Source: an uncultured Sphingomonadaceae bacterium (lineage in GTDB: Bacteria > Pseudomonadota > Alphaproteobacteria > Sphingomonadales > Sphingomonadaceae). From it: DNA of 64,000 nt. Where the stretch lies: the NCBI GenBank assembly GCA_947488625.1, contig CANKZR010000001.1:1488001-1552000 (forward strand), written 5' to 3'. Of the stretch, positions 1 through 21,085 are shown piece by piece; the stretch's first letter is position 1, and each line of letters begins with the position of its first letter. The notes beneath the pieces are model-generated. The model was not told where the DNA came from, made no database searches, and was given only the letters and a program-made list of their open reading frames with translations. The translations under genes were made by a program, and so were the position numbers.

Positions 1-728
1 GTGGGGGCAAGAACTTCGGCATCGAACTCGGCCTGTTCTGCTTCGACCGCTTTAAACGCGCCGCGGTTAATGATGTCGCCGTTCGGCTCTGCCATCCGGA
101 ATCCGCTCCAGGTATGGTAGACGCCTGTTTCGTCGGCTACGTATCGGCGGTTGGGTTCGGGCTGCAGATTATCTTGTGCCTCGCAGATGGCCAGGGCGAT
201 ATGCAGCGCCTCGATTTCCTTCCCCTGCCCCCATTCGCCGACCTTGCCCGACCTGCTGTCGGCAGTGCAGACGGCAAGGTGAAAATGGCCAAAGCTCGTG
301 TCACCATGGTTCGAGTAAATCATGGGCTTGTTTTCGGCCCGTAGCACGCGACGAAAAATGTCCCTGTGGCTGGCGGCCATCTCGTGGGTTACGGGCTCGT
401 CTCCGTAAGCTACGACGATCTGCCGCAATGAATTCTTTCCCGACGCTGCAACTAGATAGGCAAATTCAAGCGCCCGGTCCTGTTCAGTGCCCTCTTCAAG
501 ATTGAAAATCGCCACATCGAGAACACGCGTATCGTCGTCCCGGTCATCGGGACCATATGAACCGATATTGCTGGCCTCGCGCACAAGCGTGGATTCATCC
601 TGGCCCAGTTCCAAATCGAGCACATATTTGGCGACCGCCCATCCCGCGAAGAGCGCCTTGCGGTCGGCGCTTGAGATAGTTGCGATATCCCTAAAGAGAT
701 GCGCGTAGGAAATACTCTTTGCGATCAT
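1..728 (-). CDS. Relaxase/mobilization nuclease, N-terminal part (truncated by window edge)
   Basis: The reading frame stays open for 242 codons from the ATG at 728 to the window edge, so only the N-terminal part is present. The product should nick the transfer origin of a mobile element. Residues 141-150 read HGDTSFGHFH, an exact HxDT-x3-HxH relaxase metal-binding motif (H141, D143, H148, H150), followed by a hydrophobic beta strand. The start follows a GGAAAGG ribosome site, and its ATG overlaps the stop of the MobC-like gene (ATGA), so the two are translationally coupled. The motif and neighbour make a relaxase likely, but the exact MOB class cannot be assigned, and the catalytic tyrosine was not identified with certainty. 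Confidence 0.72.
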   Translation of the reverse strand, partial: MIAKSISYAHLFRDIATISSADRKALFAGWAVAKYVLDLELGQDESTLVREASNIGSYGPDDRDDDTRVLDVAIFNLEEGTEQDRALEFAYLVAASGKNSLRQIVVAYGDEPVTHEMAASHRDIFRRVLRAENKPMIYSNHGDTSFGHFHLAVCTADSRSGKVGEWGQGKEIEALHIALAICEAQDNLQPEPNRRYVADETGVYHTWSGFRMAEPNGDIINRGAFKAVEAEQAEFDAEVLAP

Positions 729-1249
729 CGGCCTTTCCTCGGCACGATCTCCTTTGCCGGGTATCGCTCAAGCATTTCGTTCATATGCTTTTGACCCAGT
801 TCGCGGGCTTGTCCGGCAAGCGACTTTGCCTGAGACTCCATCCGCTCAGCAACGGCGTGAAGCTGCATCGCAAATTCGCACAAATTCTCGATACCCTCCC
901 GGCTGTTTTCGGCGCCGAAATTTTGGCCCGCCGAGCTAACGGAGACTGTCGCAGAATCCTGAAGGGCGATACTCGCCTGGCCTAGCAACTCAGCGCTGTC
1001 ACGCAGATTACGGGCAGACTGGTAAACGCCGCCGATGGCCGCGTAAGTGGGATCGTAGACATCGCCCCGGGTCAACCCGCGATCTCGCAGGAAAGCGGAA
1101 AAGCTCAGCCGACCCTTTTGTTTTTCAAGCTCTGCCTTCTCTGTCTCGTTTACGAAGACCTTGATGATGCGATCGCGTCGATCCTTCGGAGAGGGATCAT
1201 CCTGCTCTGCCTCTACATCCGACGGAGATTTGAAAGAACGTTCGGTCAT
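725..1249 (-). CDS. MobC-like relaxosome accessory protein
   Basis: A 174-residue protein. Residues about 24-60 (RDRIIKVFVNETEKAEL, then a helix ending FSAFLRDRGL) look like the ribbon-helix-helix domain of MobC-type mobilization proteins, which bind origin-of-transfer DNA and recruit the relaxase. The C-terminal half is helical and rich in Ala, Glu and Gln, compatible with oligomerisation. A strong GGGAGGGAAG ribosome site lies just before the ATG. The stop overlaps the ATG of the relaxase gene, the usual mobC-relaxase order. The family call rests on this N-terminal pattern and the context, not on a database match. Confidence 0.62.
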   Translation of the reverse strand: MTERSFKSPSDVEAEQDDPSPKDRRDRIIKVFVNETEKAELEKQKGRLSFSAFLRDRGLTRGDVYDPTYAAIGGVYQSARNLRDSAELLGQASIALQDSATVSVSSAGQNFGAENSREGIENLCEFAMQLHAVAERMESQAKSLAGQARELGQKHMNEMLERYPAKEIVPRKGR

Positions 1250-2484: not shown

Positions 2485-5157
2485 CTATGACTTTGCTTTG
2501 AGTGATTGCAGCGTGAGCGATTGGCTTACGTCCTTCTCATCAAGCAAAATATAGTGCCACGCCTTCCCGTCAGCTTCATTCACGAAACCGTTCGCTACGC
2601 TAACCCATTTTTGAGCCGCACGGGCCTTCTCTTGAACCTCAACGTCGGTCATTTTGTCGCTTGCCTTGACCTCGATGATCATTTTGCAATCGCGGCATTC
2701 GACAACGAAGTCGGGGTCGTATCGACGGTTGCGATCATACTCGATCGAGAACTGGCCGGCGGCAGGTCTCAACCATTTTAGCACGTCAGGGAAACGCTCG
2801 CCATCCATCGCGTAAGCCAGGCGGCGTTCCGGGTCGCTGTCGAAGCGATTTACAGGATAGGGGGTCTTATTTCCTCCAGTGAAGAGGAAGCTCTTCGTCG
2901 CTGATAGCGGCTCCGCTGGCTCGCCCAAAGGCTTGACGCGCTTGGCGTCGAACTGGGCCTGCTGCGGCTTGAGCATCCGGAATGCCCGCACACGTTTTGC
3001 ACGGTATTCGACGGGCGTTTCGCGAAAGTGCGACCGCATTTGCTGGAAGATAAACTCGGCCAGCTTGCGGCCATGCTCGAGCGCGACAGCTTCGACCTCG
3101 TCTTCGTTTGCGAGATAGCTCCGCAACCTTTCAACCATCTGTCCGCATAGCTTGTAGAGCAGGTCAGATTGGCTGTCATAGTCGACCTCGGGGAAGCCGA
3201 TGAGATGCCGGATTATGTAGTTCTCAGGCCTCTCCTCCTTCGGGCCGTCCATCGATCTGGCGAGCTCGCGCTGGACATCAGTCCGCAAGTTGCGGATCAG
3301 CAGAGTATCGCCGCTTGGTCGCTGGCGGATCTGGTCAAGATCGGTGAGATCGAAGTCCTCGAACCAGAAGTTCACTTCACGGCTTGGGAGGACAACGATC
3401 TCCGGAATTTCGATGGTGTTTTCGGCAATCGCGCCGGTTATCTCGGCCACCAGCTTCTCGACATCTTGCTCTGGCAAAACGCCATCCAGCTGCCCCTGCG
3501 CCGACACGGTGGCTTTCCGATAATCGTCCGCAATCTGCTTCTGCACCTCGGGCTTCCGCAGGTCGCTCAGGCTATCCAGCTGCCGCTCGTATTTGTCGCG
3601 GATCAGCGTCATCACCGTGTCTTGCGCCGCAGCGACTTCCGGCTTCGGCGGTTCGTAGCGCTGCTGACCGGAGAAGAAGTCGTTAAGCTCTCTCGGACCT
3701 TCGTAAGGCTTCTGCACATAGGGCGGCGGGATCTCGATGACCTCGCGCTTGCCCGGCTCAATGTCTCCACCCTCGCCGATCGTCAGCGACTTCATGGCGA
3801 TGATCGAGCTGTCCTGCTTCGCCTCCTCAATGACCTTGTCGAAGCTGTCATGCGCGATGACGGTCAGCGTATCGACCATGTCGTTGCCAGTGCGCCGGCC
3901 ATAGGGAAGCCGCAGGCCGCGGCCCAAGGTCTGCTCGGTCAGAATATCCGAGTGCGAGGCACGCAGCGGCACGATGGTGAAGAGGTTGGTGACATCCCAG
4001 CCCTCCTTCAGCTTGTTCACGTGGATGACGATGTCGGTCTCGTCCTCGTGCTCCAGTTTCACGAGGCGCTCCATGGCCTCGTTCGATTCCTCCGCACCCT
4101 GGTTCGAATGCACTTCCGCTACGCGGCCGCGATAAGCACCGCCGAAGAAGGCATCGCTCTCAATGTAGGCCTTCAATTCCCCTGCGTGGGTGGTGTCCTT
4201 CGCGACAACCAGCATGAAAGGATGGACCAGCGGATGGCCCGTTTCGCGGGCGTAGAGTTCGAGGTCTACGCGCACCTGCTCATGATAGGTCACGCCGTCT
4301 TCCAGCATGATCCGCTCTAGCTGGTCGCGATCGTATTGATCCTTGCGGAAACCTTCGCGCGTGGCGACCGCAGGCTCCTTGACGAACCCATCCTCCATCG
4401 CCTGGCCGAGGGTGTAGTGGTAAATGACGTTCTTGAAGTCCTTGCCATTTGCGCCGACCGTTTTAGGCGTCGCGGTCAGCTCCAGGCCAAGCTTCGGATT
4501 GAGTTCGTAGACCGCTTTCGCTGCTGCCTTTGCGCGGTATCGGTGCGCTTCGTCCATCAGCATCACCAGATCGGCATGCCCCGCAAGGATGTCGAAATAG
4601 CTCTCGCCCAAGGTCTCTCGGAAGGACCGGATGCGGCCCTTCTCCTTGTTGATCTTGTCGACGTTGAAGATGTTGATCACCGCCTCGCCCAGCTTCAGGC
4701 CGGTGGCGTTTTCCCAGTTCTCGCCGGTGACGATTGTCGGCGGGTTCTGGGCGAATTCTGCGATGCCCTTGAACACGTATTTCGGGCTAGATGGGCGACT
4801 GAAATCCTCCAGCAGCTTGGCGTAGATCGTCGTGTTGGGGGCAAGCACGAAGAAGTTGCGGCTGCGCCCGGTGAGATAGAGATAGGCGACGAATGCGCCC
4901 ATCAGCCGCGTCTTGCCGACACCCGTTGCCAGCGCGAAACAGAGCGAGGGGAACTCGCGCTCGAAGCTTTCCACGCTGGGATAGAGCGCCTGGATTTCCT
5001 CCAGCAACTCTTGCGAATCGTCCTCGCCACGCCAATCGATAAGGTCAGCCACTTCGGCTAGGCGTTTGAGGCTTTCCTCCTGCGGCGCGCGGAGTGAAAG
5101 TCGCTGGGTAACTTCGCGGCGGATGCGCCTGCGCTGCTGGTCGGTGAGCTCGCTCAT
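2485..5157 (-). CDS. Type III-like restriction subunit Res (DEAD/DEAH helicase-nuclease)
   Basis: An 890-residue predicted restriction subunit that would translocate on and cut DNA lacking the partner Mod methylation. SF2 helicase motifs are in order: motif I ATGVGKTR (77-84), DEAH box (202-205), TATP (228-231), motif V KLKEGWDVTN (about 382-391) and motif VI EQTLGRGLRLPYGRR (408-422). The C terminus carries a PD-(D/E)xK nuclease with D816 in YDPDF and E829-x-K831 in IIEVKAS. Its ATG overlaps the mod stop (ATGA), so stoichiometry with Mod is probably set by coupling. The protein appears intact, with every expected motif present. It closes the four-gene block that starts with the SNF2 helicase gene. 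Confidence 0.88.
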   Translation of the reverse strand: MSELTDQQRRRIRREVTQRLSLRAPQEESLKRLAEVADLIDWRGEDDSQELLEEIQALYPSVESFEREFPSLCFALATGVGKTRLMGAFVAYLYLTGRSRNFFVLAPNTTIYAKLLEDFSRPSSPKYVFKGIAEFAQNPPTIVTGENWENATGLKLGEAVINIFNVDKINKEKGRIRSFRETLGESYFDILAGHADLVMLMDEAHRYRAKAAAKAVYELNPKLGLELTATPKTVGANGKDFKNVIYHYTLGQAMEDGFVKEPAVATREGFRKDQYDRDQLERIMLEDGVTYHEQVRVDLELYARETGHPLVHPFMLVVAKDTTHAGELKAYIESDAFFGGAYRGRVAEVHSNQGAEESNEAMERLVKLEHEDETDIVIHVNKLKEGWDVTNLFTIVPLRASHSDILTEQTLGRGLRLPYGRRTGNDMVDTLTVIAHDSFDKVIEEAKQDSSIIAMKSLTIGEGGDIEPGKREVIEIPPPYVQKPYEGPRELNDFFSGQQRYEPPKPEVAAAQDTVMTLIRDKYERQLDSLSDLRKPEVQKQIADDYRKATVSAQGQLDGVLPEQDVEKLVAEITGAIAENTIEIPEIVVLPSREVNFWFEDFDLTDLDQIRQRPSGDTLLIRNLRTDVQRELARSMDGPKEERPENYIIRHLIGFPEVDYDSQSDLLYKLCGQMVERLRSYLANEDEVEAVALEHGRKLAEFIFQQMRSHFRETPVEYRAKRVRAFRMLKPQQAQFDAKRVKPLGEPAEPLSATKSFLFTGGNKTPYPVNRFDSDPERRLAYAMDGERFPDVLKWLRPAAGQFSIEYDRNRRYDPDFVVECRDCKMIIEVKASDKMTDVEVQEKARAAQKWVSVANGFVNEADGKAWHYILLDEKDVSQSLTLQSLKAKS

Positions 5158-6788
5158 GCCTCCTCTCCTTCCTCGACCGCCTCTTCGTCGTCATCAGGAA
5201 CCGGGTCGCTGACGTTGAGCGAATAATCGTCTCGGCCCCATTCGCAGCGACTGAGGATGGCGCTGGGAATTTTGGTGCAAGAGAGGTTCTCGAGGTCGTC
5301 GAAACTGCCGGAGAAGGCCGGCGCGCAGATCATCAGCGAGCGACCTTCTCCCACTTCGTCGGACAGCAGTTTCAGCGCATCGCGCGTCAGGCTTTGCGTG
5401 GTGACATAAAGGAAATCGGTCTCGCTCGACTGGCCGTGGCGCCACCATTCGCCCTCGTCCTCGCTGGGCGCGTAGGTGAAGCCGAGATGCTTGCACATGG
5501 CGGCGGCGAGCATATCGGGATTGTATTCCTTGGCGACGACCCAGTTGCCCCACTTGTCCTTTTCCAGCAACGAAGGCGCGAGCGTGTAGTAACGGAAGCC
5601 ACCGCCGCCCTGCCATTCGACCGCCTTGGAAATGCCGCCCTGATCCTCGCCGTCGATCACCTTCTTCAGGCGCGGAACGATATGCGTATCGGCATGATCG
5701 CCGATCTCGGCCATGATCCAACGGCGACCCATTTTCTGGGCGACTGCGCCCGTGGTGCCGGAGCCTGCGAATGAGTCTAGGACGAGGTCGCCGGGATTAG
5801 TGGCGATGCGTAGGATCGTGTCGAGCAATTTCTCTGGCTTCGGATTGTCGAAGGGATCGTCGGGTATCAACGCCAAAGTTTCTTTTCGCCCGTCTTGGTT
5901 GTGGCCAGCGAGAGTATGCTTCCAAAGCGACATCGGCATCATGCCTTGGTTGATCGTATCAATGAAGTTCTTAAGAGCCGGGACGGAGTTCTTGCCTTTG
6001 ACGCCCCACCAAATCTTGTCTTCCCGAACATTCTGAGCATGCGCCTCTTTCGAAAAAGCCCACACACGCGTTTTCTTCGGCCAAACTTCTTCACCGGTAT
6101 TCGGCTGCTTAATAGGGTAGTAAAGGTTTGGACGATCCTCAGCAGAATAGCGGCAGGTATAATCCATCGCCTTCCAAGGCCCGCGTGGATCTTTGTCGGG
6201 GTTTTTATATCGCCCCATCTGGTCTTCAGTCAGAGGCAACAGATTGCGCTCGAAAGCAGCGGATTTTCGATAGACTAGAATGTGGTCATGAACATACCCG
6301 AAGTCCTTTGTGTCGGGCGGCGGCGAATACCGCTTTTCCCAAGCGATATCACAAAGGAAGTTAGACCGGCCGAAGACTTCATCCAACATTACCTTGAGAT
6401 AATGCGCTTCATTGTCGTCAATCGTTATCCAGATCGACCCATCCTCGCTCAAAAGCTTTCGAAGAACGAGAATTCGATGGCGCACTAAGGAAAGCCAAAG
6501 CGAATGCTCGAGTCCGTCTTCATAGTGCTTGAATGCTGACCCAGTATTGTAAGGCGGATCGATAAAGACGCACTTCACTTTCCCCGCATACTCAGCCTCC
6601 AGCGCCTTCAACGCGAGAAGGTTGTCGCCCTTGATCAGGATATTGTCGAAGGTGCCCGGCCCCTGCGCCCCGCCCGGTCCTTCCGCGCGGTAGGACTTGT
6701 CCGGATCCTCGATCAGGATGCGCGGCTCCAGCTTCGGCCGCTCTTCCTTGCCGGGCCAGGTCAGTTCGAGCTTGGTCTTCTTCGTCAT
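5154..6788 (-). CDS. Type III-like site-specific adenine DNA methyltransferase (Mod)
   Basis: A 544-residue methyltransferase expected to make N6-methyladenine and provide target recognition for the Res partner. Motif IV DPPY is at 77-80 and the SAM-binding motif FAGSGTT at 340-346. The catalytic motif comes first, the beta-class order typical of type III Mod proteins. The region between them, about 150-320, is the probable target recognition domain. The C-terminal 150 residues are acidic and could contact Res. It overlaps the genes on both sides by 4 bp, so the GcrA-domain protein, Mod and Res form one translational unit. The recognition sequence cannot be read from the gene. Confidence 0.9.
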   Translation of the reverse strand: MTKKTKLELTWPGKEERPKLEPRILIEDPDKSYRAEGPGGAQGPGTFDNILIKGDNLLALKALEAEYAGKVKCVFIDPPYNTGSAFKHYEDGLEHSLWLSLVRHRILVLRKLLSEDGSIWITIDDNEAHYLKVMLDEVFGRSNFLCDIAWEKRYSPPPDTKDFGYVHDHILVYRKSAAFERNLLPLTEDQMGRYKNPDKDPRGPWKAMDYTCRYSAEDRPNLYYPIKQPNTGEEVWPKKTRVWAFSKEAHAQNVREDKIWWGVKGKNSVPALKNFIDTINQGMMPMSLWKHTLAGHNQDGRKETLALIPDDPFDNPKPEKLLDTILRIATNPGDLVLDSFAGSGTTGAVAQKMGRRWIMAEIGDHADTHIVPRLKKVIDGEDQGGISKAVEWQGGGGFRYYTLAPSLLEKDKWGNWVVAKEYNPDMLAAAMCKHLGFTYAPSEDEGEWWRHGQSSETDFLYVTTQSLTRDALKLLSDEVGEGRSLMICAPAFSGSFDDLENLSCTKIPSAILSRCEWGRDDYSLNVSDPVPDDDEEAVEEGEEA

Positions 6789-8107
6789 GCGTTTCCTTCG
6801 AGCCGCTTTTCGGCCAGTTCAATCTTGCGGTCGAGCTCCGCAATCGTGGTTTCCAGTTGCGCGTGCCGCCTTTGAACGCGCTTGAATTTTTGCGACCCCT
6901 CGAAAAACTTACGCCCACGCCGCTTGAGGGCAGCAAGCGAGCGGCTTGCTCGGTCCCGCTCCCGCCGCAAATTCCGCAGCGCGACAGCATCAAAGACCGG
7001 CGGTAGCCGCTCCGTGAAAGTCGCCGTATTGGTCTTGGGTAATCCGAGACGCTCCGCTTTCCCGATTACCGCGTTGCGAGACGTGTTACCCAGCGCAGCC
7101 GCAATGGTCGATGCCGACTGTCCGTCGCGCCACATGGATTTCAACAGTTCAACGCGCTTGTAAGTCCAGCCTGAGTCTTCGGGAGACAACCCTTCTGCTT
7201 CTATGTCGGGCGGCGGTGAGCTAATCTTGTCTAGCGCGGGAGAATGTTTGGGAAGGTCGCGTTTGGGTGCGACTGCTACGACTTCTTTGACCGCCTTTGC
7301 GGCCGCCGCCTTCGCCAATCCAGCCGCAAGTTGCTCCTCCACGTTTTCCAACTTGGGCGTAGAGCCGCCCGTTCGCCCAGATGCGGGAATCCAGTGCGTG
7401 GCATATTGCTTTGGCCGCGTAGGCACATCCGAATAGGCACATGACTTGGCTTTCCATCGCACGACGTGAAGCGGGCTCACCTCGATCAGGAGATCATCTC
7501 GCGCCCACAAGGACTCTTCGAACTCTGCCGACTGCTCCCTGATAGTCGCGCGTGTCTCGGCCATTTCCGCCAGAAGCTCGTCATTCTCTGCGTCAAGCTC
7601 CTCGATGATCTGCCGCATCGCCACGCGCATATCCGGCGTGGCATCGGGATGCCGCCGACGCTGGCGCAATTCTGCTATCTGCAATTCGTTACGCTCGATC
7701 ATCGAACGGACGCGTCCCTCCAGCTCGGCAATACGGGCCTCCTGGTCCTCGAATGCCTCAGCCAGCGCGGTGTTCTTCTCGCGATGCCAACGCGCGATCA
7801 GTGCCCCTTCTTCCTCGCAGATCAGGTCTTCGAGAATGTCCGGGGGCAGTTCGTCGCAATAGGTCGGATTGATCCACCCGCAGTGAATAAGGTTGACTGC
7901 CTTGAAGGACGGGATGGGGGTTTCCTGTTCGTCACATGCGACGACAAGCTTTTCGGTAAGAATATCGTGCTCGCTTTGGATGGTCGCTTTTGCCACCATC
8001 AGCCAGCCTGATTTCTTGCGCAATCGGGCGACCCAGTGCGGCGGTCCATCGAAGGAATCAAAGTCCAGCTCCAAGCATAGCGGTGCTGGGCCAAACTCCG
8101 TGAACAT
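6785..8107 (-). CDS. Coiled-coil protein with embedded GcrA-type DNA-binding domain
   Basis: A 440-residue protein without a known whole-length relative that I can name. Residues 1-100 form a globular domain of unknown type. Residues about 108-200 are a long Glu/Arg-rich coiled coil. Residues 312-358 closely follow the N-terminal helix-turn-helix of the cell-cycle regulator GcrA (GWTYKRVELLKSMW, then SASTIAAALG and SRNAVIGKAERLGLP), and residues about 374-438 are another coiled coil. GcrA in Caulobacter works at sites methylated by CcrM, so a DNA- or methylation-reading role is suggested, not shown. The gene sits 3 bp after the SNF2 gene and overlaps mod by 4 bp. In similar cassettes this slot, as I recall, often holds a DUF4391 protein. 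Confidence 0.75.
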   Translation of the reverse strand: MFTEFGPAPLCLELDFDSFDGPPHWVARLRKKSGWLMVAKATIQSEHDILTEKLVVACDEQETPIPSFKAVNLIHCGWINPTYCDELPPDILEDLICEEEGALIARWHREKNTALAEAFEDQEARIAELEGRVRSMIERNELQIAELRQRRRHPDATPDMRVAMRQIIEELDAENDELLAEMAETRATIREQSAEFEESLWARDDLLIEVSPLHVVRWKAKSCAYSDVPTRPKQYATHWIPASGRTGGSTPKLENVEEQLAAGLAKAAAAKAVKEVVAVAPKRDLPKHSPALDKISSPPPDIEAEGLSPEDSGWTYKRVELLKSMWRDGQSASTIAAALGNTSRNAVIGKAERLGLPKTNTATFTERLPPVFDAVALRNLRRERDRASRSLAALKRRGRKFFEGSQKFKRVQRRHAQLETTIAELDRKIELAEKRLEGNA

Positions 8108-8110
8108 CGA

Positions 8111-11002
8111 TCAAGCTGCCTCCACACGATCAGCCTGCACGGCCCCGGGTTGCACCTGCCAGCGGAGCGTCATGATCTGCTCGACCCGCGGTTCACGCAT
8201 GAGCATCGCTTCAATCTCGTCGATACGGGCATCAATTTCGTCACGAACCTTGCGCTTTTGCTCATGCTGGCCAAGCACCAGATCGTCGCGCTGGTTCTGC
8301 AATTTGCGCTTGTCGCGCTTGAGTTTGATTCCCTCGTCCATGGACAGATGCGGGTTACGCGCCGCCCGGTCGATCTCACGGATCTCTTCCTCCAGCGCGC
8401 TGATCTTCGCCTGGATCTCCAGTTCCATATCGCTCGCGTAGCGGCTGAGGCGCTCCTCTTCCTCCAGCATCATCTTGTAGCTCTCATCACGCACACGCTT
8501 GGAGAAGCTTTCGAATGCCTCGCCCTGAACTGCGTCGAGCTGGTCTGCCGGCACAGCTTCAAATGCAGTGCCTTGCGAGATGGCTGGCGCCATCATGAGT
8601 TTGTCCCCGACCGCAGGTGGCAGCAGTTCGCCACTATCTGTCAGTGCGACGACGATGATTTCTTCAACCGGGGCATCTTCCACCGGCATGACGGCTTTCA
8701 GCACGCGCAACCAACCGGATTTGCCTCCAAGATCGGCGACGCCACCGAGCTGTCCGGTATATGCGTAGGCGGAGGGGTCGAAGATCAGGCTAGATGGCTC
8801 TCTGTCTTCCTTTGCAGCGAGAGCTTCCTCGATCAGCTGCGCGCCGAGGCCCTCGTTGGCCCGGAAGAACTGCCAATCATGCTCATCGGCCTCTTTCCAA
8901 TCGGTCGTCCATCGCTTGCCTTGAAAGTCGAAGCAGCGACTGTCCGGAGACGGGAACTGCGCCTCTGGCAGCATACCATGGGCAACCATCAGAAGCCGGC
9001 GTTCGAATTCCGGGACGATCTCTGCAAGAACCTGATCGCGCCGATGGAGCTTTGATACCACGTCGGCGTCGAGATGCTCGAGGGCCTTGGCGCGTGCCAT
9101 CTCCATGTCCGCGTCGATGCTGTCCTGAATTTTTGCGGTTAGTTCGTCGAACTCCCGATCCGCTTCTTCCGCGCTGCGGCACTCCTGGACAATGCGCAGG
9201 ACCTCGCGCTCGAAATCGATCCCATCGGTCAGGATACCCAAGACCTCGTCCGACGCTCCAAAAACCCCGTCGAACAGATGCAGCTTTTGCTCGAGAAGCT
9301 CGTGGATGCGCGCCTCGGTGCCGTTCTTCATGTTCAGCATGTTGACGACGGTAACGTCGACCAGCTGTCCGTAGCGATGGCAGCGACCGATACGCTGCTC
9401 GACGCGCTGCGGATTCCAAGGAAGATCGTAGTTTATCAGCAGCGAACAGAACTGCAGGTTGATACCTTCTGCACCGCTCTCAGTGGCGATGAGGATCGAC
9501 TTGTCATCACTCTTGAAAGCCTCGACGATGGCAGCCTTCATGTCGGCTGTTTTCGAACCGGAGATACGATCGGTATCCGCGTGCTTTTCTTTCCATTGGC
9601 GGTAGATTTCGCGGCTTTCCGGATCATTGTTGGATCCGTTCATCAGCACCACTTGCCCGTCATATCCGTTGTCTGAGAGGAGGTCGGCGAGGTAGCGCTG
9701 CGTTCTCGTGCTTTCCGTGAAGATCACAGCTTTGCGCTTGCCACCCTTCCCCTCTATTTCGTCCAGCACCAGAGGGAGGTTCTCGATCAGCTTCTGGCCC
9801 TTGGCGTTTTCGGTGATCGAGTGCGCGAGATCACGCATTGCCTCGACAAGGGCCAGTTCATATGCGAGCTGATCGGGATCGATGAACTCAGGTTCAACGT
9901 CTTCTTCGCTCTCGTCCTCGATGTCATCGAAGTCGTCGAGGTCCAGATCGTCTATCCCTTCGATCTCGCGTATCATTTCGATGTTCGCCGTCTTTTTCTG
10001 ACGGAGCCGCTCGACCAAACTGTCCAGATAGCGCGCTACGGCAAACGTAGATGATCCCAAGACCTTCCGGGCTTGCAGCAGCACCAGCGGGTTATTTCGA
10101 CCTCCATAAGCGATGGTGGTGGGGTCACGCAGATACTCTGAAAGCGCTTCATAAAGCTGCTGCTCGGGTTCGCTCGCCTCGAACCTGAAGGTAACTGCAT
10201 GCCTCTTGCGAAAATTGATGTGGCCAGCCTCCTGAACTTGCCTTCGCAGAGTTCGATTGCAGATTGGCTCGAGCCGCTCTCGCAAGAGTTGCTGCGAGGC
10301 CGGATTGGACGCAGCACCGGTGTATTGCGCTTTGAAAGCGTGCTCACCACCGAAATGGGTTTCATCGATGATCGACACGAGGCCGTAGAGTTCGTTGAGG
10401 TTGTTCTGGAGCGGGGTAGCAGTCAGCAGGATCTTGAATCGATCGCCCAGAGCCTCCTTCAAAGCCTTAGCATTCTTAGCCGCACCCTTCTTGTGCACGT
10501 TACGCAGTCGATGAGCTTCATCGAAAACCACAAGATCCCACTTCGCGGCGCGAACTTCGTCGGCCCTCCGCGCAGCGAATTCGTAGGAGCAGATAATAAT
10601 CGACCCAGGCGTCTCAAACGGTCGCCTGCGGCCCGCCTTGACCATATCTCTGTAGGTCTTGGCCTCGAGAATCTGACTGGGCAGCGAGAACTTCTCGTGG
10701 AGCTCCTGGCTCCATTGCTTCCGCAGTGATGCGGGCACCACGAGTAGAATTCGCCGCTTATGCTCAGCCCATCGCTGCGAAATTACGAGACCTGCCTCGA
10801 TGGTTTTGCCCAAACCGACTTCGTCGGCAAGCAATACGCCCTTGGATAAGGGCGAGCGCAAAGCGAACAGGGCAGCATTGACTTGGTGAGGGTTCATCTC
10901 AACCCTTGCTGAGGTCAGCGAGCGTGTGAATGCTTCCTCTGCGTTGGCCGAAGAGACGAGCCGGTGCGCATGATAAGTCGCCTGTTCGGGCAGATAGGTC
11001 AT
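8111..11002 (-). CDS. SNF2-family helicase/translocase of the defence cassette
   Basis: A 963-residue SNF2-like ATPase. Motif I is DEVGLGKT (60-67), motif II DEAH (161-164), motif III TATPLQNN (about 194-201), motif V ATESGAEGINLQF (506-518) and motif VI EQRIGRCHRYGQ (535-546). This resembles the RapA/HepA and DrmD-like branch. A strongly acidic insertion lies at about 346-373, and residues about 840-935 form a long coiled coil. Its likely role is double-stranded DNA translocation with the Mod/Res pair. Three bases separate it from the GcrA-domain gene, whose coiled coils could pair with its tail (inference). Transcription probably comes through from the WYL gene 56 bp upstream or from a promoter in that gap. 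Confidence 0.85.
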   Translation of the reverse strand: MTYLPEQATYHAHRLVSSANAEEAFTRSLTSARVEMNPHQVNAALFALRSPLSKGVLLADEVGLGKTIEAGLVISQRWAEHKRRILLVVPASLRKQWSQELHEKFSLPSQILEAKTYRDMVKAGRRRPFETPGSIIICSYEFAARRADEVRAAKWDLVVFDEAHRLRNVHKKGAAKNAKALKEALGDRFKILLTATPLQNNLNELYGLVSIIDETHFGGEHAFKAQYTGAASNPASQQLLRERLEPICNRTLRRQVQEAGHINFRKRHAVTFRFEASEPEQQLYEALSEYLRDPTTIAYGGRNNPLVLLQARKVLGSSTFAVARYLDSLVERLRQKKTANIEMIREIEGIDDLDLDDFDDIEDESEEDVEPEFIDPDQLAYELALVEAMRDLAHSITENAKGQKLIENLPLVLDEIEGKGGKRKAVIFTESTRTQRYLADLLSDNGYDGQVVLMNGSNNDPESREIYRQWKEKHADTDRISGSKTADMKAAIVEAFKSDDKSILIATESGAEGINLQFCSLLINYDLPWNPQRVEQRIGRCHRYGQLVDVTVVNMLNMKNGTEARIHELLEQKLHLFDGVFGASDEVLGILTDGIDFEREVLRIVQECRSAEEADREFDELTAKIQDSIDADMEMARAKALEHLDADVVSKLHRRDQVLAEIVPEFERRLLMVAHGMLPEAQFPSPDSRCFDFQGKRWTTDWKEADEHDWQFFRANEGLGAQLIEEALAAKEDREPSSLIFDPSAYAYTGQLGGVADLGGKSGWLRVLKAVMPVEDAPVEEIIVVALTDSGELLPPAVGDKLMMAPAISQGTAFEAVPADQLDAVQGEAFESFSKRVRDESYKMMLEEEERLSRYASDMELEIQAKISALEEEIREIDRAARNPHLSMDEGIKLKRDKRKLQNQRDDLVLGQHEQKRKVRDEIDARIDEIEAMLMREPRVEQIMTLRWQVQPGAVQADRVEAA

Positions 11003-11058
11003 TCAGTCTTATCCTTCGTTCTTCAGAAACCCATCGCAGGCCTTTGCGACAAATCCGG

Positions 11059-12036
11059 TCACACCTCACCGAGAGCTGCTTGCGCAGCTTCCAATCTTTC
11101 CTGCATTACTTGACGAAGATCGTCAGGTGCGATGATGGCTACCTCGCCGCCCCAAGTGAACAGATGCTCCGCCAGCTCGCGCAATCCGCCAGAGTGAAAG
11201 CGAACAAGCAGAGAGCCGTCCTGCTGGTCTTCAAGAACCTGTTCTGGATGGAAGCGCCATGCACGGGCACGCTCAACAGCTGTGGGAGCAACGGAAAGCA
11301 CAATGTCGTGTCCATCTTCCCGCCAGATTCCGAAGCTTCGTGCTAGCCAAGCATCGAGATCCCAGTCCTCGCTGGCACATCCCGATTGATTACTGATGTG
11401 CACCTTGCTCATCCGATCCAGGCGATAGGGCACGGGCTCATGCTCGCTGCCAGGCAGCTGGCCAATTAGATAGGTGACCGCGCCGTGAATCAGTCCAACA
11501 GGTATGACACGGCGCCATCGGGCTTCGGTGGCTCCATCCCGCATGTAGTCAAACTCAACGCATGAGCCCGCCATCATTGCGCCCTGCACCTGCGCCAGCA
11601 CTTCATGCGAAACAGAAAGTGCGGGGCCGGCAGGAATATGATGCCGCTGCAAACGAGCGAGAGGTTCCAAATCAGGATCGAGACGGCGCTTCTCATGAAT
11701 GTCCAGCGCGCCTTTCACCTTCTCTTCAAGGCTCTGCAAAAGCGAGGCCTGCACTGTGCCAGTGAGTTTAGCGGCAGAAGCGGCCTGATGTAACGCAGCA
11801 ATCTCGGCAGCGGTCGGCCGCGTGAAGACGCGCCGCAGGCTACCTGTGATTCGAAACCGCTTGCGGCGATCATCGATCACTTCTTCAAGATCGAAATGAA
11901 GACGGATCACGTCGCGGAGGCGCTCTGCAGTGCGACGGTCGGCACCAATGACTTCGGCCATCTCGTCAAGCGTTAGTCCGTCGGAGGTATCATGAAGCGC
12001 GTTCACCAGCGTGAGGAGCCGGTCCAGCTTTGCCAT
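11059..12036 (-). CDS. WYL-domain transcriptional regulator
   Basis: A regulator with an N-terminal winged helix (LDRLLTLVNALHDTSDGLTLDEM onward, with RRTAERLRD as recognition helix), a WYL domain centred on the AVTYLIGQ strand, and a C-terminal WCX-type domain (WRFHPEQVLED to the end). WYL regulators are common switches in defence islands, where they usually repress the neighbouring genes and respond to a nucleic acid or nucleotide ligand. I prefer the ATG at 12036 (MAKLDRLL), since homologues start about there and GGGGTGGGAAGA precedes it. An upstream ATG at 12063 would add nine residues. The gene lies between the McrBC and SNF2 blocks and may control either. It has a dyad in its leader. 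Confidence 0.85.
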   Translation of the reverse strand: MAKLDRLLTLVNALHDTSDGLTLDEMAEVIGADRRTAERLRDVIRLHFDLEEVIDDRRKRFRITGSLRRVFTRPTAAEIAALHQAASAAKLTGTVQASLLQSLEEKVKGALDIHEKRRLDPDLEPLARLQRHHIPAGPALSVSHEVLAQVQGAMMAGSCVEFDYMRDGATEARWRRVIPVGLIHGAVTYLIGQLPGSEHEPVPYRLDRMSKVHISNQSGCASEDWDLDAWLARSFGIWREDGHDIVLSVAPTAVERARAWRFHPEQVLEDQQDGSLLVRFHSGGLRELAEHLFTWGGEVAIIAPDDLRQVMQERLEAAQAALGEV

Positions 12037-12066
12037 TCTTCCCACCCCTGCCCCCAATGACATAAA

Positions 12067-12079
12067 CGCATTTGATGCG
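12067..12079. promoter_or_regulatory. Candidate operator upstream of the WYL gene
   Basis: CGCATTTGATGCG is a perfect 13-bp dyad (5-bp arms, 3-bp centre) placed 4 bp before the upstream ATG and about 30 bp before the preferred ATG of the WYL gene. Position and symmetry suit an autoregulatory operator. Nothing ties it to this protein except proximity, and a 13-bp dyad can occur by chance. Confidence 0.3.
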
Positions 12080-12151
12080 ACCGAAACTGACGGAGCTGAA
12101 CGCTGGAGACAAGTAAGAAAGCGCTTAATTCACAGAAAGTTGTGGGGCAGA

Positions 12152-13444
12152 TTAAAATCGCTCGCAGAGTTTTGCGATGCGACGGGTGACTTCGTCTTCA
12201 GCCTGCGAAGTATCAATCGTGGCGATAGCCAAGCGTTCGCTTCCCCCGGCCACCCCGAAAGGTTCACGTTCGCCACACGGCTCGCCAGGAATGCTAGGAT
12301 AGAGCAGCATCAACTCGCGCGTCGGATAGAGGCGCGCATACGCCATCAATTGGTAGACATCGCCTTGACTTACCCCGTGCTTACGGTCGAGGGTATTGGT
12401 AGCGAGCTTCTTCCACTTGGTGTCGATGATCGCTAGGAGGCGGCCACTTTGCCGCAGTATAATGTCTGGCTTGGTTCGGAACACATCGCCGTTTTCCAGA
12501 TGCCCGCCGGTAAATGCACCAAGGCAAGCGCGGTGACCGCCTTGGTCGACGACCTCAATGTCGCTTCCCGCTAGTGCCTTGCGCATCAAGGCGGCGATGT
12601 ATTTCTCGAACAGGTCGTTCATCGGGAAAAGAAGACTAAATCCGTCGGGTGCGCGCGTGGCGTGGTGCGTCGCTTGCCAGTCGCGGCGCAGCAAAAGTTG
12701 GGCAAGACGGAAGAGACTTTCCCAGCGGCGATTGGTGCGATCGATCTGCACTGCCTTCCACGGAAGGCGAGCCACCGGCACGAGAGGGATTTCAGCCAGC
12801 GCATGGCGAAGCTCATCCAGCTTCCGGCGCGTTGCAGGAGAGCGCACGTATTTTCCGAGGAAAACTACCGAGCTGGCCATCACCCGCATCAGCGGGGTAT
12901 CGGGTTCAAGTTGGTCGAAACGACAGGCAAGGCGGTCAGGGCGGACGGCATTTTGGGTGAATTGGCGGGTAACATCCAACCTGCCGCGTAGGGCGGGCAG
13001 ATCGTCTTCACACTGGAGATAGAGCCGCGGCAGTCCTCGCCGCACTTCGGCCATCAGCTTGTCGGCAAAGGCACGGATCAGCACTTCGAGCAGCGTGTGG
13101 GACTGCGTATCTATCGCCGCCTCGCGCCCCATGTCCAGATCAAGGCCAAGCGCCACATCGAGCATCCGCACAAGGCGATTGCGGACAGCATCGGGCGTTT
13201 CCGAGTCCACCGTGTCCGGGTCGACCTTGGGCAGGATCTCGAGGCTGCAGCCTTTCGCTGCGACCATCCCAACCATCTGGCGGGCCACTATCCTGTCTCG
13301 CCGATAGATGAGTATGTTGGTGCCGTCGCGATGGGCGAGCGGGTGCTGACACGCGGCGGCGTGTAGAGCATCAGCCTGCGCAAGGGTGAACCCGTCCTCC
13401 CCAAGCTTCACATGCCCCCATTCACGGACGGTGAAATGGCTCAC
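12152..13444 (-). CDS. mcrC: McrC-like nuclease subunit of a type IV restriction system
   Basis: A 430-residue McrC protein. The N-terminal part (VREWGHVKLG, then LEILPKVDPD) is the typical McrC head that binds and stimulates the McrB ring. The C-terminal PD-(D/E)xK nuclease shows PD at 326-327 and D341-T-K343 in AIIDTKWKK. With McrB it should cut foreign DNA carrying modified bases. The GTG start overlaps the mcrB stop (GTGA), so the subunits are coupled. The gene looks intact and of ordinary length. It is followed after 88-115 bp by the WYL gene. Confidence 0.9.
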   Translation of the reverse strand: MSHFTVREWGHVKLGEDGFTLAQADALHAAACQHPLAHRDGTNILIYRRDRIVARQMVGMVAAKGCSLEILPKVDPDTVDSETPDAVRNRLVRMLDVALGLDLDMGREAAIDTQSHTLLEVLIRAFADKLMAEVRRGLPRLYLQCEDDLPALRGRLDVTRQFTQNAVRPDRLACRFDQLEPDTPLMRVMASSVVFLGKYVRSPATRRKLDELRHALAEIPLVPVARLPWKAVQIDRTNRRWESLFRLAQLLLRRDWQATHHATRAPDGFSLLFPMNDLFEKYIAALMRKALAGSDIEVVDQGGHRACLGAFTGGHLENGDVFRTKPDIILRQSGRLLAIIDTKWKKLATNTLDRKHGVSQGDVYQLMAYARLYPTRELMLLYPSIPGEPCGEREPFGVAGGSERLAIATIDTSQAEDEVTRRIAKLCERF

Positions 13445-16400
13445 TGTGTGTCGGCCTCGCCACTGTTTGCCTCCGGTTCGGTAGTGGTCTTGCCGGAGAC
13501 GAGGCAGCTGTAATCGGCTTTCTCAAAGCTCGCTCGCGCCCGCCAGGATTTGAGCGGCTCTCCACCTTCCCCCATCGGATCCTCGATCGTTTCGCAAATC
13601 AGGAAATTGCCGCCATTTTCTTTCTCGCCAAGCACCGCAGCAAGGCGGTTCCAGTCATCGAAGAAATATTCCTGCAGCAGCGGAATCACCTTGTCGCGCA
13701 TCACGGCATCGACCTGCGCCTTCGTCTCGCAGCCGATAAAGAATGCGTGGCCAATTCTGTGATCGCGATCAACGAGATATTCGATCCGCTTGTTCATCGC
13801 ATTTAGCACCGCAGCGAGCGGCAGACGGGTCTTTTCCTCGGCCCTTCGGAACGCGTCAACGCTTGTATCGGGCGCCATTTCCTCGAATCTAAACCGCCGG
13901 CGTAGTGCGGTATCGAGCAATGCGATGGAGCGGTCGGCGGTGTTCATTGTGCCGATAATGTGAAGATTGGCAGGAATGCCGAACGTCTCCATGGAGTAAG
14001 GGAGTTTTACGGTAAGCTCCTCATCCATTCCCAGGCGCTTATCTGGCTCGATTAACGTGATGAGCTCGCCGAACACTTTGGAGATGTTGGCGCGATTGAT
14101 TTCGTCGATCACGAGGACGAAGTGCTTTACCTGACCACTTTTGCTCTCATCACCTGGCAGAAGGGTGGAGAGCCCCTCGCGATCGAGATTGGCTTCCTGT
14201 ATTTTGTAGCAGGATTTCTGACTGAACTTCGCGCTTGAAATGAGCGAGGCGTCGATTGGGGTATCGAAGCGCCGAAGCCACCTCACTTTACGGCGATGGT
14301 TGTAATCGCGCGTTTCCGTCGGCGCAAATTCGTATTCTCCAGTAACCTCGGCGATCGCCCGGATCTTCGTGTTGCCATAGGAAACGACAACGATGTCGCC
14401 AGGCTTCATGTCGACGACAAAACGATTGACCTGCGCGATGTTCGAATCTGATCCATGGGTGCCGGGATGATCCTCATTCCAACGATCATGGATCGCTCGA
14501 TAACTATCGTAGCCTGACCAGTCGATCTCGCCTCCCCAACCCAAAACTATGTAGTTGCCGGCCCACGCGTCTTCGAAAATCTCGTCCTCTAAGCCTGCCC
14601 TTCCAAGGGACATTTTGAATACGCTTCGACCTTCAAGGTCTTGCGCTTCACTCACGCCCCCAGACTTCCGGGCCTCATCAGCTCTCGTGCAGAGTTGCCT
14701 GAAGATACCCGCCACTGGTTCAAGCCGAAAACCAGGTCCGTCGCCTTCAGCCTCGCTCTCCCCGGTTTGAGGTCGAAGTCCCTCGACAAACTCCTCGTAT
14801 GCGAAGTTCTGGTGGAAGGTCACGAATTCAATGCGCTTGTCTCTACGAAGACGCTCGTATTGCTTGCGCAATTCTTTACGATCGCGCGACGGAGCCTCGC
14901 CGCAATAGCGGACGGCCACTTCCATTGTTCGATACGTCTTTCCGGTGCCTGGAGGTCCGTAAAGTATGAGGTTGGTTGGTTCTATCAACTCCTGACTCCC
15001 CGCGGCTGACCTTTCATCGAGTTCATACTCATCGGGCCATCGCCCCTCGCGCTTAGTTTCAGTCGGCTTCCAGTCTGAAAGCAATGAGTTGGCTTCTTCG
15101 ATTGTCGAAGCAAAATCTGCGGCTTTCTGGTCATTGAACTCATAAGCGCCCATAAGGCCGAGCTTGTCGTTCTGATGGCTGAAGACGACGAATGCGCGAT
15201 CAGTTCGCAGTTGAACCGAACCTAGCGTTCCGCTGGCGTCGCGGTTGGCGTCATTTTTCCGACCGAACCGAATTTCCGGAATGTTCGTGTGATACCAATC
15301 GAGGCCTGCATCATGCACAGTTCGGGCAATCGAACAAAAAGCTCGCCTCTGCTCGGCGCTCCAGGCGGCACGGGCCACCCGAAATCGCTCATCCCCATCG
15401 AAGCGCATTAGAAGCTCATCGTCAGTCATTTCGTCGTCTCGCAGCACTTTCTGACAAGTCTCCCAAATGAAGCCTTGCACGTCCCAAAGATCGCGGGGTG
15501 ACCAACCCCACTCATGGTCCATGATCCGCATCATCTCTTTGGCCATTCCCGAGACATTGGTCAGTTCTTCGAGAGAAAGTGGTCCATTTGCAAAAGCCGG
15601 CTTTCCACGAAGCATGCGGGACGCATTGTCAGTTGGCGTGGATCTGATCGGTAGGACCGATTGCGGGTCGACGAGCGCGCGCAGCATGCTCGCCAACATT
15701 CGGCTTTCAGCATAGGGATTACTTGGGGGATCACCTTGCAGAGGAGACCAGACCTCTTGAATGAAGGCGGCGACCGCGTCATCGCCATTCTCCGACCGCA
15801 CCAGTCGTCCGGCCTCCGCTTCAAAAAGTCCGGGGTTGGCTTTGCGCGCTTTGTCGATAACGCTCATCGCATGCCAATCGATCAAATTGCAGAACAGTTT
15901 GTTTCGTCCCGCGAGCATTTCGATGAGAGCCTCGCCCAACTCTTCGTTTGACGCATCCTGCAGCGAAATCACCAGGCGCTGCGCCTCTTCCACAAGCGCC
16001 TGCTTGTAGTCGCCTTCGTTTGACGCGAAGCTTGGCGTCTCCGCGAAACTCGTAAAATCGGGGTGACGCCCTAAGAAAACTGTCTTGAGGCGTTCAAAGG
16101 CGACCATGTTGATCGTAGTGCCGAACTCCAGCTCAAATCGATATCGAATCGTCGAGCTAGGTTTTTCGCTGCCTATTGGGCTATGCCTATTGAGCAGCTT
16201 GACCTTAGCCTGTTCCGCAAAAGCCTTTCCCTCGAGAACCGAGCAGACAGCGGGCAAAGAGTTTTTCAGGCCCATCGCATTGTGCAAATCGCCGGAGATC
16301 AATTCGACAAACGCCTCGTGGCGCTCCCGGGCAGGCGAAATATAGTTCTCGAATGCAAACTGACGAATTCGGTCAGCTTGGGATGATGAGCCGCCGGATC

Positions 16401-16704
16401 TTGCGGGGACGCCTATTCGGTCGGCAATGTCTGGATCTAGCTCATATTCGACCAACTTTTGCGCGCCGAATTTCAAGTAATTGACAGGCCCACCGGCGAG
16501 AGCCTTTACCCTTGCCGGAAGTTTGTCGACCAGCATCGCCTTGGCCGTCTCTTCGATCGTATCAAGCTCGAGACAGTCGTCTGTTTCATTTGATGCGCCG
16601 GGCGGTTTGACGCGATATGCCGATACCCCCGTTTTGCGATTGTGGTGTTGCACAGGCTGATATTCGCCACCCTCCGAATCGCGGAAAATTAATTCCCTCT
16701 TCAA
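13441..16704 (-). CDS. mcrB: McrB-like AAA+ motor with inserted EVE/PUA-like domain
   Basis: A 1087-residue, unusually long McrB. Walker A GPPGTGKT is at 583-590, Walker B in FVLVIDEINRA at about 862-872, the McrB signature MNTADRS at 920-926 and the arginine-rich sensor ALRRRFRF at 933-940. Between Walker A and B, residues about 695-815 form an extra domain (KMSLGR, YIVLGWGGEIDW, GDIVVVSYG, IRAIAEVTGEY). It reads like an EVE/PUA-like modified-base reader inside the motor. The N-terminal 560 residues show no clear named domain and probably contain a further DNA-binding or target module. The start is a TTG after a strong GGAGGAGGG site and overlaps the upstream stop. The McrB call is firm; the EVE call is by pattern only. 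Confidence 0.88.
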   Translation of the reverse strand: MKRELIFRDSEGGEYQPVQHHNRKTGVSAYRVKPPGASNETDDCLELDTIEETAKAMLVDKLPARVKALAGGPVNYLKFGAQKLVEYELDPDIADRIGVPARSGGSSSQADRIRQFAFENYISPARERHEAFVELISGDLHNAMGLKNSLPAVCSVLEGKAFAEQAKVKLLNRHSPIGSEKPSSTIRYRFELEFGTTINMVAFERLKTVFLGRHPDFTSFAETPSFASNEGDYKQALVEEAQRLVISLQDASNEELGEALIEMLAGRNKLFCNLIDWHAMSVIDKARKANPGLFEAEAGRLVRSENGDDAVAAFIQEVWSPLQGDPPSNPYAESRMLASMLRALVDPQSVLPIRSTPTDNASRMLRGKPAFANGPLSLEELTNVSGMAKEMMRIMDHEWGWSPRDLWDVQGFIWETCQKVLRDDEMTDDELLMRFDGDERFRVARAAWSAEQRRAFCSIARTVHDAGLDWYHTNIPEIRFGRKNDANRDASGTLGSVQLRTDRAFVVFSHQNDKLGLMGAYEFNDQKAADFASTIEEANSLLSDWKPTETKREGRWPDEYELDERSAAGSQELIEPTNLILYGPPGTGKTYRTMEVAVRYCGEAPSRDRKELRKQYERLRRDKRIEFVTFHQNFAYEEFVEGLRPQTGESEAEGDGPGFRLEPVAGIFRQLCTRADEARKSGGVSEAQDLEGRSVFKMSLGRAGLEDEIFEDAWAGNYIVLGWGGEIDWSGYDSYRAIHDRWNEDHPGTHGSDSNIAQVNRFVVDMKPGDIVVVSYGNTKIRAIAEVTGEYEFAPTETRDYNHRRKVRWLRRFDTPIDASLISSAKFSQKSCYKIQEANLDREGLSTLLPGDESKSGQVKHFVLVIDEINRANISKVFGELITLIEPDKRLGMDEELTVKLPYSMETFGIPANLHIIGTMNTADRSIALLDTALRRRFRFEEMAPDTSVDAFRRAEEKTRLPLAAVLNAMNKRIEYLVDRDHRIGHAFFIGCETKAQVDAVMRDKVIPLLQEYFFDDWNRLAAVLGEKENGGNFLICETIEDPMGEGGEPLKSWRARASFEKADYSCLVSGKTTTEPEANSGEADTQ

Positions 16705-20123: not shown

Positions 20124-20222
20124 GGCGCGATTCTCCTGTTCACCCTTCCTACGCAACCAATACGACAAAACTGGTCGTTCTAATTTTGGGTGCTGAAGGC
20201 CGCTTCATCGCTGGCGCTCTTC

Positions 20223-21080
20223 TCATCTTAGTGACGCAAGAAAGCTTGTCGGCGAAAGGTCCGCGTGAGCGTTCAACGGGGGCCGAAGACAAAAAGCCCT
20301 TGGTTGGCGAGCGAAGTCCCAAAGCCGAATGAGATGCCAATGATCACGCTTATTTTCAGCTACGGACAGCTCGTTTGCGGTGATGTGAAAAGGTGTCCGC
20401 TCCCAGCCATTGGTGGTCTTCACTTCCAGTAACCGCTCAGTGCCATCGGCCTCGAAGCTGGATATATCGTAGCCGTAGCCATCTCCGTCCTCCGCCGACG
20501 TCCATCGCACTTCGCGAGCAAGGTCAGCCCTCCCCGCGGACGCCAGCCGTGCTCGTTCGTGTGAAAGGACTCGTTCTTCGCCGGCTTTGCCCAAAGCGCG
20601 ATTGCGGGCGTCGCGTTGCGCTACATCGTATTTGAGCCCGATCTTCGCCATAAATTCGGCGTCCACCGGTGGTGGCTCATTGCGCTGCGTCGGTATGGGA
20701 CCGAATTCCAACAGTGCCCCGGTCGCTGGACCGATCCAGCTTGCCGCCGCTGGGTCTCTCAGGCGCAATTGATTTGTGTGTGGGGCAAGCCAGTCCTCAT
20801 TGCGATCCAGCCAGCGCAACACTCCATCTACCAAGGCAATCTGGAAATTTGCCGCTGGTTTGTAACCTGGAATCCATGGTTGGCCGAGACCGAGCAGGAC
20901 AGCACTGATATTCTGATGTTTGAACTCAATCGAACCTCGCCCGCGCCCGATTCTGTCCTGTAATACTCGATTGTGCGCAGCCTTATTGTAAGGAACTCTT
21001 GCAATGTCGTCCGCTAGCATCGCGAAATAGTCCGCAACGGCAGCATCGATCTCCGGCGCGGCCCAGTCCTCGCCCGCCAA
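20223..21080 (-). CDS. DUF3883 nuclease-like defence protein
   Basis: A 285-residue protein. Residues about 10-95 (AVADYFAMLADDIARVPYNK, then FKHQNISAVLLGLG) match a conserved N-terminal module found with HNH and DUF3883 restriction proteins. Residues about 155-285 are a DUF3883 domain with a PD-(D/E)xK-like core, D205 in GYGYDIS and E219-x-K221 in LLEVKTT. It could be a restriction nuclease or a recognition subunit. The frame begins with TTG only 5 bp after the stop of the upstream HEPN gene. About 99 bp separate it from the helicase-nuclease gene, leaving room for a promoter there. Confidence 0.75.
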   Translation of the reverse strand: MAGEDWAAPEIDAAVADYFAMLADDIARVPYNKAAHNRVLQDRIGRGRGSIEFKHQNISAVLLGLGQPWIPGYKPAANFQIALVDGVLRWLDRNEDWLAPHTNQLRLRDPAAASWIGPATGALLEFGPIPTQRNEPPPVDAEFMAKIGLKYDVAQRDARNRALGKAGEERVLSHERARLASAGRADLAREVRWTSAEDGDGYGYDISSFEADGTERLLEVKTTNGWERTPFHITANELSVAENKRDHWHLIRLWDFARQPRAFCLRPPLNAHADLSPTSFLASLR

Positions 21081-21085
21081 GCCTC

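Follow-up and report, generated by a model that had tools for sequence, protein, structure and literature searches.

What might a DNA-binding domain otherwise known from a cell-cycle regulator do inside a restriction-modification cassette? The question is raised by contig CANKZR010000001.1 of an uncultured Sphingomonadaceae bacterium (assembly GCA_947488625.1), of which positions 1,488,001-1,552,000 (64,000 nt) were analysed and are called the window below. Within it a 440-residue protein, here named X, is encoded between a SNF2 helicase and the mod and res genes of a type III-like restriction-modification (R-M) system. An earlier note on this DNA had proposed that X contains the helix-turn-helix (HTH) of GcrA, an alphaproteobacterial cell-cycle regulator, and that such a reader domain could direct the helicase to host or phage DNA. 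Our comparisons indicate that the GcrA-type domain is one of several tails carried by a protein family whose common part is a stand-alone duplicate of the C-terminal domain of the helicase, and that X has a history of its own within the cassette. All four cassette genes (SNF2, X, mod and res) are encoded on the minus strand, with the following parts:

6785..8107, minus strand: X, 440-aa adaptor-like protein, intact open reading frame
7451..8107, minus strand: X residues 1-219, stand-alone paralogue of the SNF2 C-terminal alpha+beta domain (blastp, hhalign and AlphaFold2 (AF2) model)
6998..7168, minus strand: GcrA-type three-helix DNA-binding domain, X residues 314-370 (PF07750 and AF2 helices)
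6788..6997, minus strand: C-terminal helical hairpin, X residues 371-440 (AF2 model and alignments)
8111..11002, minus strand: RapA/DrmD-like SNF2 helicase, 963 aa
8153..8797, minus strand: SNF2 helicase residues ~736-950, the C-terminal domain copied in X residues 1-219
5154..6788, minus strand: Mod, type III-like N6-adenine DNA methyltransferase, 544 aa (PF01555, N6_N4_Mtase, 156.6 bits; MTase_III, 673 bits)
2485..5157, minus strand: Res, type III-like restriction helicase/nuclease, 890 aa (PF04851, ResIII, 77.5 bits; REase_III, 726 bits)

The open reading frame of X runs from an ATG at 8107 to a TGA at 6785 on the minus strand, which the note had left unstated, and several stops interrupt the plus-strand reading. 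It begins 3 bp past the end of SNF2, and at its other end the stop codon shares the 4 bp ATGA (6785-6788) with the start codon of mod; the size, coordinates and overlap given earlier were thus borne out, as were the neighbours (SNF2, N6_N4_Mtase and ResIII). The Pfam profile check that had been set beforehand as a test of the GcrA region matched PF07750 to residues 314-370 with an E value of 7.8e-15 and 56 bits (cut-off 26.9), and the range first proposed, residues 312-358, covers the HTH. The closest solved structures are those of the C. crescentus GcrA DNA-binding domain (5yiu, 5yiv, 5yiw and 5z7i, E = 7.2e-12), and in the AF2 model the HTH is formed by helices 316-327, 332-338 and 344-353, in blocks with a predicted confidence (pLDDT) of 83-94. 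Helices are predicted both before it (91-151 and 158-202) and after it (371-398 and 406-439), in agreement with the flanking coiled coils described earlier; a low-confidence linker separates the N-terminal domain from the HTH, and the C-terminal hairpin has a KFFEGSQKF turn, with a similar turn in several relatives.

The match covers profile positions 3-59 of 155 and stops there, so that X is without the C-terminal sigma2-interacting part of GcrA, and the NCBIfam GcrA model gave 55.2 bits, far below its full-length cut-off of 280. X was therefore rejected as a member of the GcrA family; only the N-terminal DNA-binding domain is present. A chance match was also rejected, given the E value, the four recurrences described below and the fact that PF07750 matches in the own genome were confined to gcrA (in two pieces) and X. 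Among 385 genomes sampled from the class, 224 matched the GcrA-type HTH and 222 of these had exactly one copy, presumably gcrA; only the own genome and G527 had two. This indicated that the domain seldom occurs outside gcrA. When the HTH copies of X proteins (five in all) were scored at the 32 sites with a conservation of 90% or more in 26 GcrA sequences, they agreed with the consensus at 23-25 sites, C. crescentus GcrA itself agreeing at 28, and the RNAVI core of the recognition helix was kept in all five.

The N-terminal part of X has a different origin. Residues 1-219 matched the C-terminal domain of the adjoining SNF2 helicase by blastp (E = 5e-8), and alignment of the two profiles with hhalign gave a probability of 99.4 and an E value of 3.8e-21 over 212 columns. 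A profile built from six X relatives matched the helicase C-termini of the own and of other cassettes, as did the single X sequence. In the AF2 model, with pLDDT above 90 in 19 of the 22 ten-residue blocks of residues 1-219, the domain has five strands, the fourth and fifth being separated by two long coiled-coil helices (strands 10-15, 33-44, 49-59 and 77-83, helices 91-151 and 158-202, strand 207-220), and the model of the helicase C-terminal domain shows the same order of elements. According to the accessible part of a 2026 survey (PMC12839542), the BrxHII/RapA C-terminal domain has this layout, is reported only inside helicases and was suggested to be unique to them; X residues 1-219 share its sequence profile and predicted fold and differ in being encoded by a separate gene without any motor.

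Comparisons with solved structures were less informative. The best hit of the N-terminal domain in a sequence search of the Protein Data Bank (PDB) had an E value of 0.017, to stretches covering mostly its helical part, and Foldseek returned nothing at E <= 0.001 for the X model. The matches listed by VIA-align were mostly coiled-coil or long-helix proteins, and the 50 structure matches listed for the X model included no RapA and no GcrA. For the helicase model, RapA (8so8) ranked 40, tied with coiled coils and with an rmsd of 15.9; among the matches listed it was the only one spanning nearly the whole model. On the profile and blastp evidence, the N-terminal 219 residues of X are paralogous to the C-terminal alpha+beta/coiled-coil domain of the RapA-like SNF2 motor. 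The idea that X directs the helicase is partly supported and gains a structural reason, X being built from a helicase part. Of that earlier proposal, the GcrA domain inside a SNF2/Mod/Res cassette stood; what X proteins have in common, however, is the N-terminal domain, and the HTH is found in only 4 of 20.

These 20 came from a scan of genome contigs for the helicase C-terminal domain, in which the best 80 of 563 confirmed stretches were examined together with three loci chosen for having X (the window, the plasmid locus L034 and L047). X was present in 20 of the resulting 83 SNF2 loci (17 of the 80), a count that is not a frequency given how the loci were chosen. The gene is thus not absent from all other Mod/Res/SNF2 clusters; such an absence, combined with no effect on protection, was the second outcome that would have spoken against the earlier note. 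In all 20 loci X, the helicase C-domain paralogue by which the family is recognised, lies directly 3' of the SNF2 gene, and blastp found a Mod-like gene in 19 and a Res-like gene in 16 of them; loci L059 and L067 stop within or close to Mod, L074 has no Res match and L066 has neither gene. The last, L066:13236-14681, is the X of Rhodobacteraceae bacterium HTCC2150, and the next long open reading frame, on the opposite strand, resembles a phage-type integrase when inspected by eye.

Both a Mod-like and a Res-like gene were present in 37 of the 63 loci without X, and in 21 of the 63 the Mod-like gene starts, by eye, within 30 bp of the SNF2 stop (17 of these 21 with Res). SNF2-Mod-Res without X is therefore taken as the plain form of the cassette; it occurs in Pseudomonadota of several classes, in one cyanobacterium and in one gemmatimonad. 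On a tree of the 83 helicases the presence of X requires two changes, as low a number being reached in none of 500 shuffles; 18 of the 20 X loci fall into one alphaproteobacterial helicase clade and the remaining two, L074 and L080, are nearby on the tree. A tree of 57 domains split all 20 X N-terminal domains from 37 helicase C-terminal domains (support 100/100 and 100% of 200 bootstrap trees). By these trees the X copies belong to a single family that is nearly confined to one alphaproteobacterial branch of the cassette, and a single duplication in this lineage would be the simplest reading; the trees leave the root of X among the helicases unsettled, so that when and how often duplication occurred can only be inferred.

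Other searches gave nothing or spoke against a wide distribution. A single-protein scan of genome contigs with X found no relative. Residues 1-247 matched 7 of 396 genomes of the order sample (five with X, one with the helicase only and one with a short frame), 1 of 385 genomes matched in the class sample, namely the own genome, and 4 of 398 in the phylum sample, where the three besides the own genome matched weakly (966- and 1001-aa helicase-like open frames and a 113-aa frame). No phage matched residues 1-219, none of 40 pattern matches in viral contigs was confirmed, and of 13 plasmid records matching X one did so over the N-terminal domain (L034) and 12 over the HTH only. In L051 (G434) a 47-aa frame matches only the end of the X N-terminal domain (residues 178-220) and is possibly a cassette remnant.

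Behind the common domain the X proteins diverge. Pfam recognised a GcrA HTH in four of the 20 tails, a Gre C-terminal domain in two, Sel1 in one and nothing in 13. The Gre-type tails are those of Neorhizobium (L069:11216-13294, 31.3 bits) and Rhizobium (L068:11216-12967, 19.3 bits), one above and one below the cut-off of 26.9; by eye, L069 seems to carry a second Gre-type copy. The Sel1-repeat tail belongs to Novosphingobium arvoryzae (L062:11214-13061), which by eye ends in a zinc-ribbon-like pair of CxxC motifs. The GcrA HTH, which was found in no other open reading frame of the scanned loci, lies mid-protein in the X of the window and C-terminally in L071 and L063; L047 has one copy at each of these positions. 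A neutral one-off fusion was rejected, since the HTH recurs at two positions and L047 has both. All four HTH forms fall within one six-row X clade (100/100), where HTH presence requires two changes (as low in 6 of 500 shuffles), and the other two rows of the clade, L058 and L073, are without HTH. In these two an additional gene separates X from mod, encoding a Bro-N protein in L058 (12326-13207) and a DUF3800 protein in L073 (12479-13216), and the gap there is a possible insertion spot.

The histories of the four proteins were compared by pairwise distances. Res was found by blastp in 11 of 12 loci and 10 loci were used, L060 (truncated helicase) and L059 (without res) being left out. SNF2 and Res distances were strongly correlated (rho 0.89, Mantel p 0.0005, the floor of 2000 shuffles), whereas X distances gave rho 0.15 against SNF2, 0.14 against Res and 0.18 against Mod (p 0.14-0.19). 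Whole Mod was intermediate, with rho 0.59 against both SNF2 and Res, values that are partial because Mod is N-terminally trimmed in some rows. A smaller set, with res identified by motif in 6 of 12 loci, gave rho 0.91 for SNF2-Res, -0.25 for X-SNF2 and -0.11 for Mod-X. Windows along the proteins gave a similar picture: SNF2 windows against Res gave rho 0.61-0.88 and Res windows against SNF2 0.60-0.83, whereas X windows gave 0.04-0.25 against SNF2 and 0.83-0.90 against the rest of X. Windows of whole Mod against SNF2 ranged from -0.27 to 0.20 up to about residue 390 and from 0.48 to 0.87 thereafter, so that the C-terminal part of Mod shares the history of SNF2 and Res; the hypervariable middle (residues ~150-300) has 17-22% identity, as expected for a specificity region. 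Given that Mod windows against X gave only -0.25 to 0.11, X and the Mod specificity region seem not to have been exchanged together.

Tree tests were also applied. The six-row X clade holding all HTH forms was rejected on SNF2 (p-AU 8e-76) and on Mod (1.5e-65), and the SNF2 grouping of L047, L034 and L065 was rejected on X (p 0.0004) and Mod (7e-6), these p values being too small by an unknown factor because the clades were picked after the trees had been viewed. Of the four proteins, X varies most (mean identity 42%, against 65% for SNF2, 70% for Res and 57% for Mod), and distances this large blur the distance comparisons; the tree tests do not rest on distances alone. Taken together, the distances and trees separate the history of X from that of the SNF2/Res backbone and also from that of the Mod specificity region, as for a second exchangeable module.

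How the cassette relates to known systems can be stated for each part. It resembles type III restriction-modification in having a Mod methyltransferase next to a Res helicase-nuclease (a TnsA-like endonuclease domain in Res scored 26.3 bits, just under the cut-off of 26.5) and differs in adding a SNF2 motor and, in one branch, X. The motor scores best to DrmD of DISARM class 1, where DrmD occurs with a methylase (609 bits in PADLOC; NCBIfam 615.8, cut-off 950), and cross-matches DrmA with 137 bits; RapA is its best sequence match among solved structures, although the NCBIfam RapA model gave 174.8 bits against a cut-off of 576 and it does not qualify as full-length RapA. Among the PADLOC matches listed for eight proteins (the cassette and four proteins upstream, the best 25 matches for SNF2 and Mod, with genes downstream of res lying outside), there was, apart from this cross-match, no DrmA, DrmB or DrmC and no PglZ or BrxC, and the BrxH-type matches of SNF2 were the only trait of BREX type 3. 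Membership of DISARM or BREX was therefore rejected on those eight proteins. With GcrA, the sigma70 cofactor of the alphaproteobacterial cell cycle, X shares the N-terminal DNA-binding domain (PF07750) and differs in the missing sigma-interacting domain and in the place of the HTH, behind a helicase-derived domain. Type III-like R-M with a SNF2 motor is already known; the X family is new here. Neither a GcrA domain in an R-M or defence protein nor a stand-alone RapA-type C-terminal domain was found in the accessible parts of the open-access literature, which is weak evidence of absence as subscription papers fall mostly outside it.

On the host side, the genome has gcrA and a gene for a CcrM-like methylase of 387 aa with a RAMA domain, which aligned with 346 of the 350 positions of the NCBIfam CcrM model and scored 611.7 bits, less than its strict cut-off of 830. 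Base composition would predict about 230 GANTC sites in the window, where 90 were counted. There is none in the 56-bp gap upstream of SNF2 (11003-11058) or in 12064-12151, and a GANTC site at the operon promoter was rejected for this reason; one lies at 2413, downstream of res. GcrA is reported to bind methylated GANTC DNA better than unmethylated (PMC3667746) and to bring RNA polymerase to methylated promoters (PMC7403470).

What, then, might X do? We give about an even chance to its being the targeting adaptor of the SNF2-Mod-Res cassette. The copied domain would dock onto the SNF2 motor, or replace the motor's own C-terminal domain, and the tail would determine at which sites the complex loads and which it avoids. 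With the DNA-binding domain of GcrA as the tail in this strain, the complex would probably be held at GcrA-type sites, of which CcrM-methylated GANTC is the simplest candidate, and a second host mark would be gained beside the one written by Mod. The likelier use would be to discriminate host from incoming DNA, the motor being parked on CcrM-marked DNA or exempted from it; attraction and exemption are both possible. X may plausibly read m6A-GANTC. Several points weigh against this adaptor role: each HTH copy differs from the GcrA consensus at 7-9 of the 32 conserved sites, one of which, a histidine towards the end of the recognition helix, is replaced in all five, so that methylation reading cannot be assumed; 16 of the 20 X proteins have no HTH, so that methyl reading cannot be the general job of the family; exchange of X among helicases means that any X-motor interface must be permissive; and the support comes from sequence and models.

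The departures from the GcrA consensus, and the wide variation of the tails, most without a recognised reader, would also suit an X that docks on the motor and merely adds sequence-poor DNA affinity, with methylation uninvolved. We consider such a plain tether rather unlikely, because a rare domain, present in a single copy in nearly all sampled genomes that have it, was taken instead of a common HTH, and because the RNAVI core was kept in every copy. It is improbable that X regulates transcription of the cassette or island from GcrA-type sites. R-M controller (C) proteins are DNA-binding proteins encoded inside R-M loci, and X resembles them in this, overlaps mod in what is probably the same operon and borrows from a protein that recruits RNA polymerase; it differs from them in having a copied motor domain and the reader-type domain of a host regulator and no promoter switch. 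The sigma-interacting part of GcrA is absent, the gap upstream of SNF2 has no GANTC, a WYL protein that is likely a regulator is already at the locus, the N-terminal domain is a helicase part and most X proteins have no HTH. X could also be a link between the RapA-like motor and transcription complexes, its tails contacting RNA polymerase or promoters, and the system would then act on transcribed phage DNA. RapA as the motor's best sequence match among solved structures, the two Gre-type tails and the place of GcrA in transcription initiation (PMC7403470) are in its favour; against it, the sigma-touching part of GcrA is missing and the Sel1 and unrecognised tails do not indicate RNA polymerase, and we regard it as a poor prospect.

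The cassette lies in a defence-like island that has, at 11059-21784, a WYL protein, a McrC-/McrB-like pair, an AAA_12/RNase_H_2 protein and a NOV_C protein, the first of which is:

11059..12063, minus strand: WYL/WCX protein, probable regulator adjoining the cassette (PF13280, PF25583)

At the left edge lie a NikA-like gene (window 725-1249, E = 0.0035, under the cut-off) and a large LPD7-domain protein (L139:17104-19728); by sequence these two possibly hint at a mobilisable element beside the cassette.

A second, independent GcrA-HTH fusion was found in a relative (genome G050), where a 1078-aa open frame (L141:4600-7833) combines the HTH (residues 49-101, 64 bits) with a KAP NTPase (105 bits) and resembles PifA (64 bits) and QatA (59 bits) in PADLOC. 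The frame opens with TTG and its true start is therefore unsure, and no record of the plasmid collection covered 80% of it; a pentapeptide-repeat gene lies nearby. Together with X, this fusion suggests, from domain matches, that GcrA-type readers were taken into defence-like proteins more than once.

The wider proposal, which we hold to be less likely than not, is that in alphaproteobacterial SNF2-Mod-Res systems an exchangeable targeting subunit arose from the motor's tail, that some of its forms read m6A-GANTC, so that restriction would check the independent marks of Mod and CcrM and may follow the cell cycle, and that such readers were recruited repeatedly, as in X and the KAP NTPase. Forms of X with and without the GcrA tail make the idea directly testable by comparison. 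A motor domain copied out as an exchangeable adaptor with swappable tails would mean that an R-M system could change its targets with Mod and Res unchanged. If the reading holds in this bacterium, its restriction system would take a self/non-self cue from a cell-cycle mark of the host, tying defence to the state of replication.

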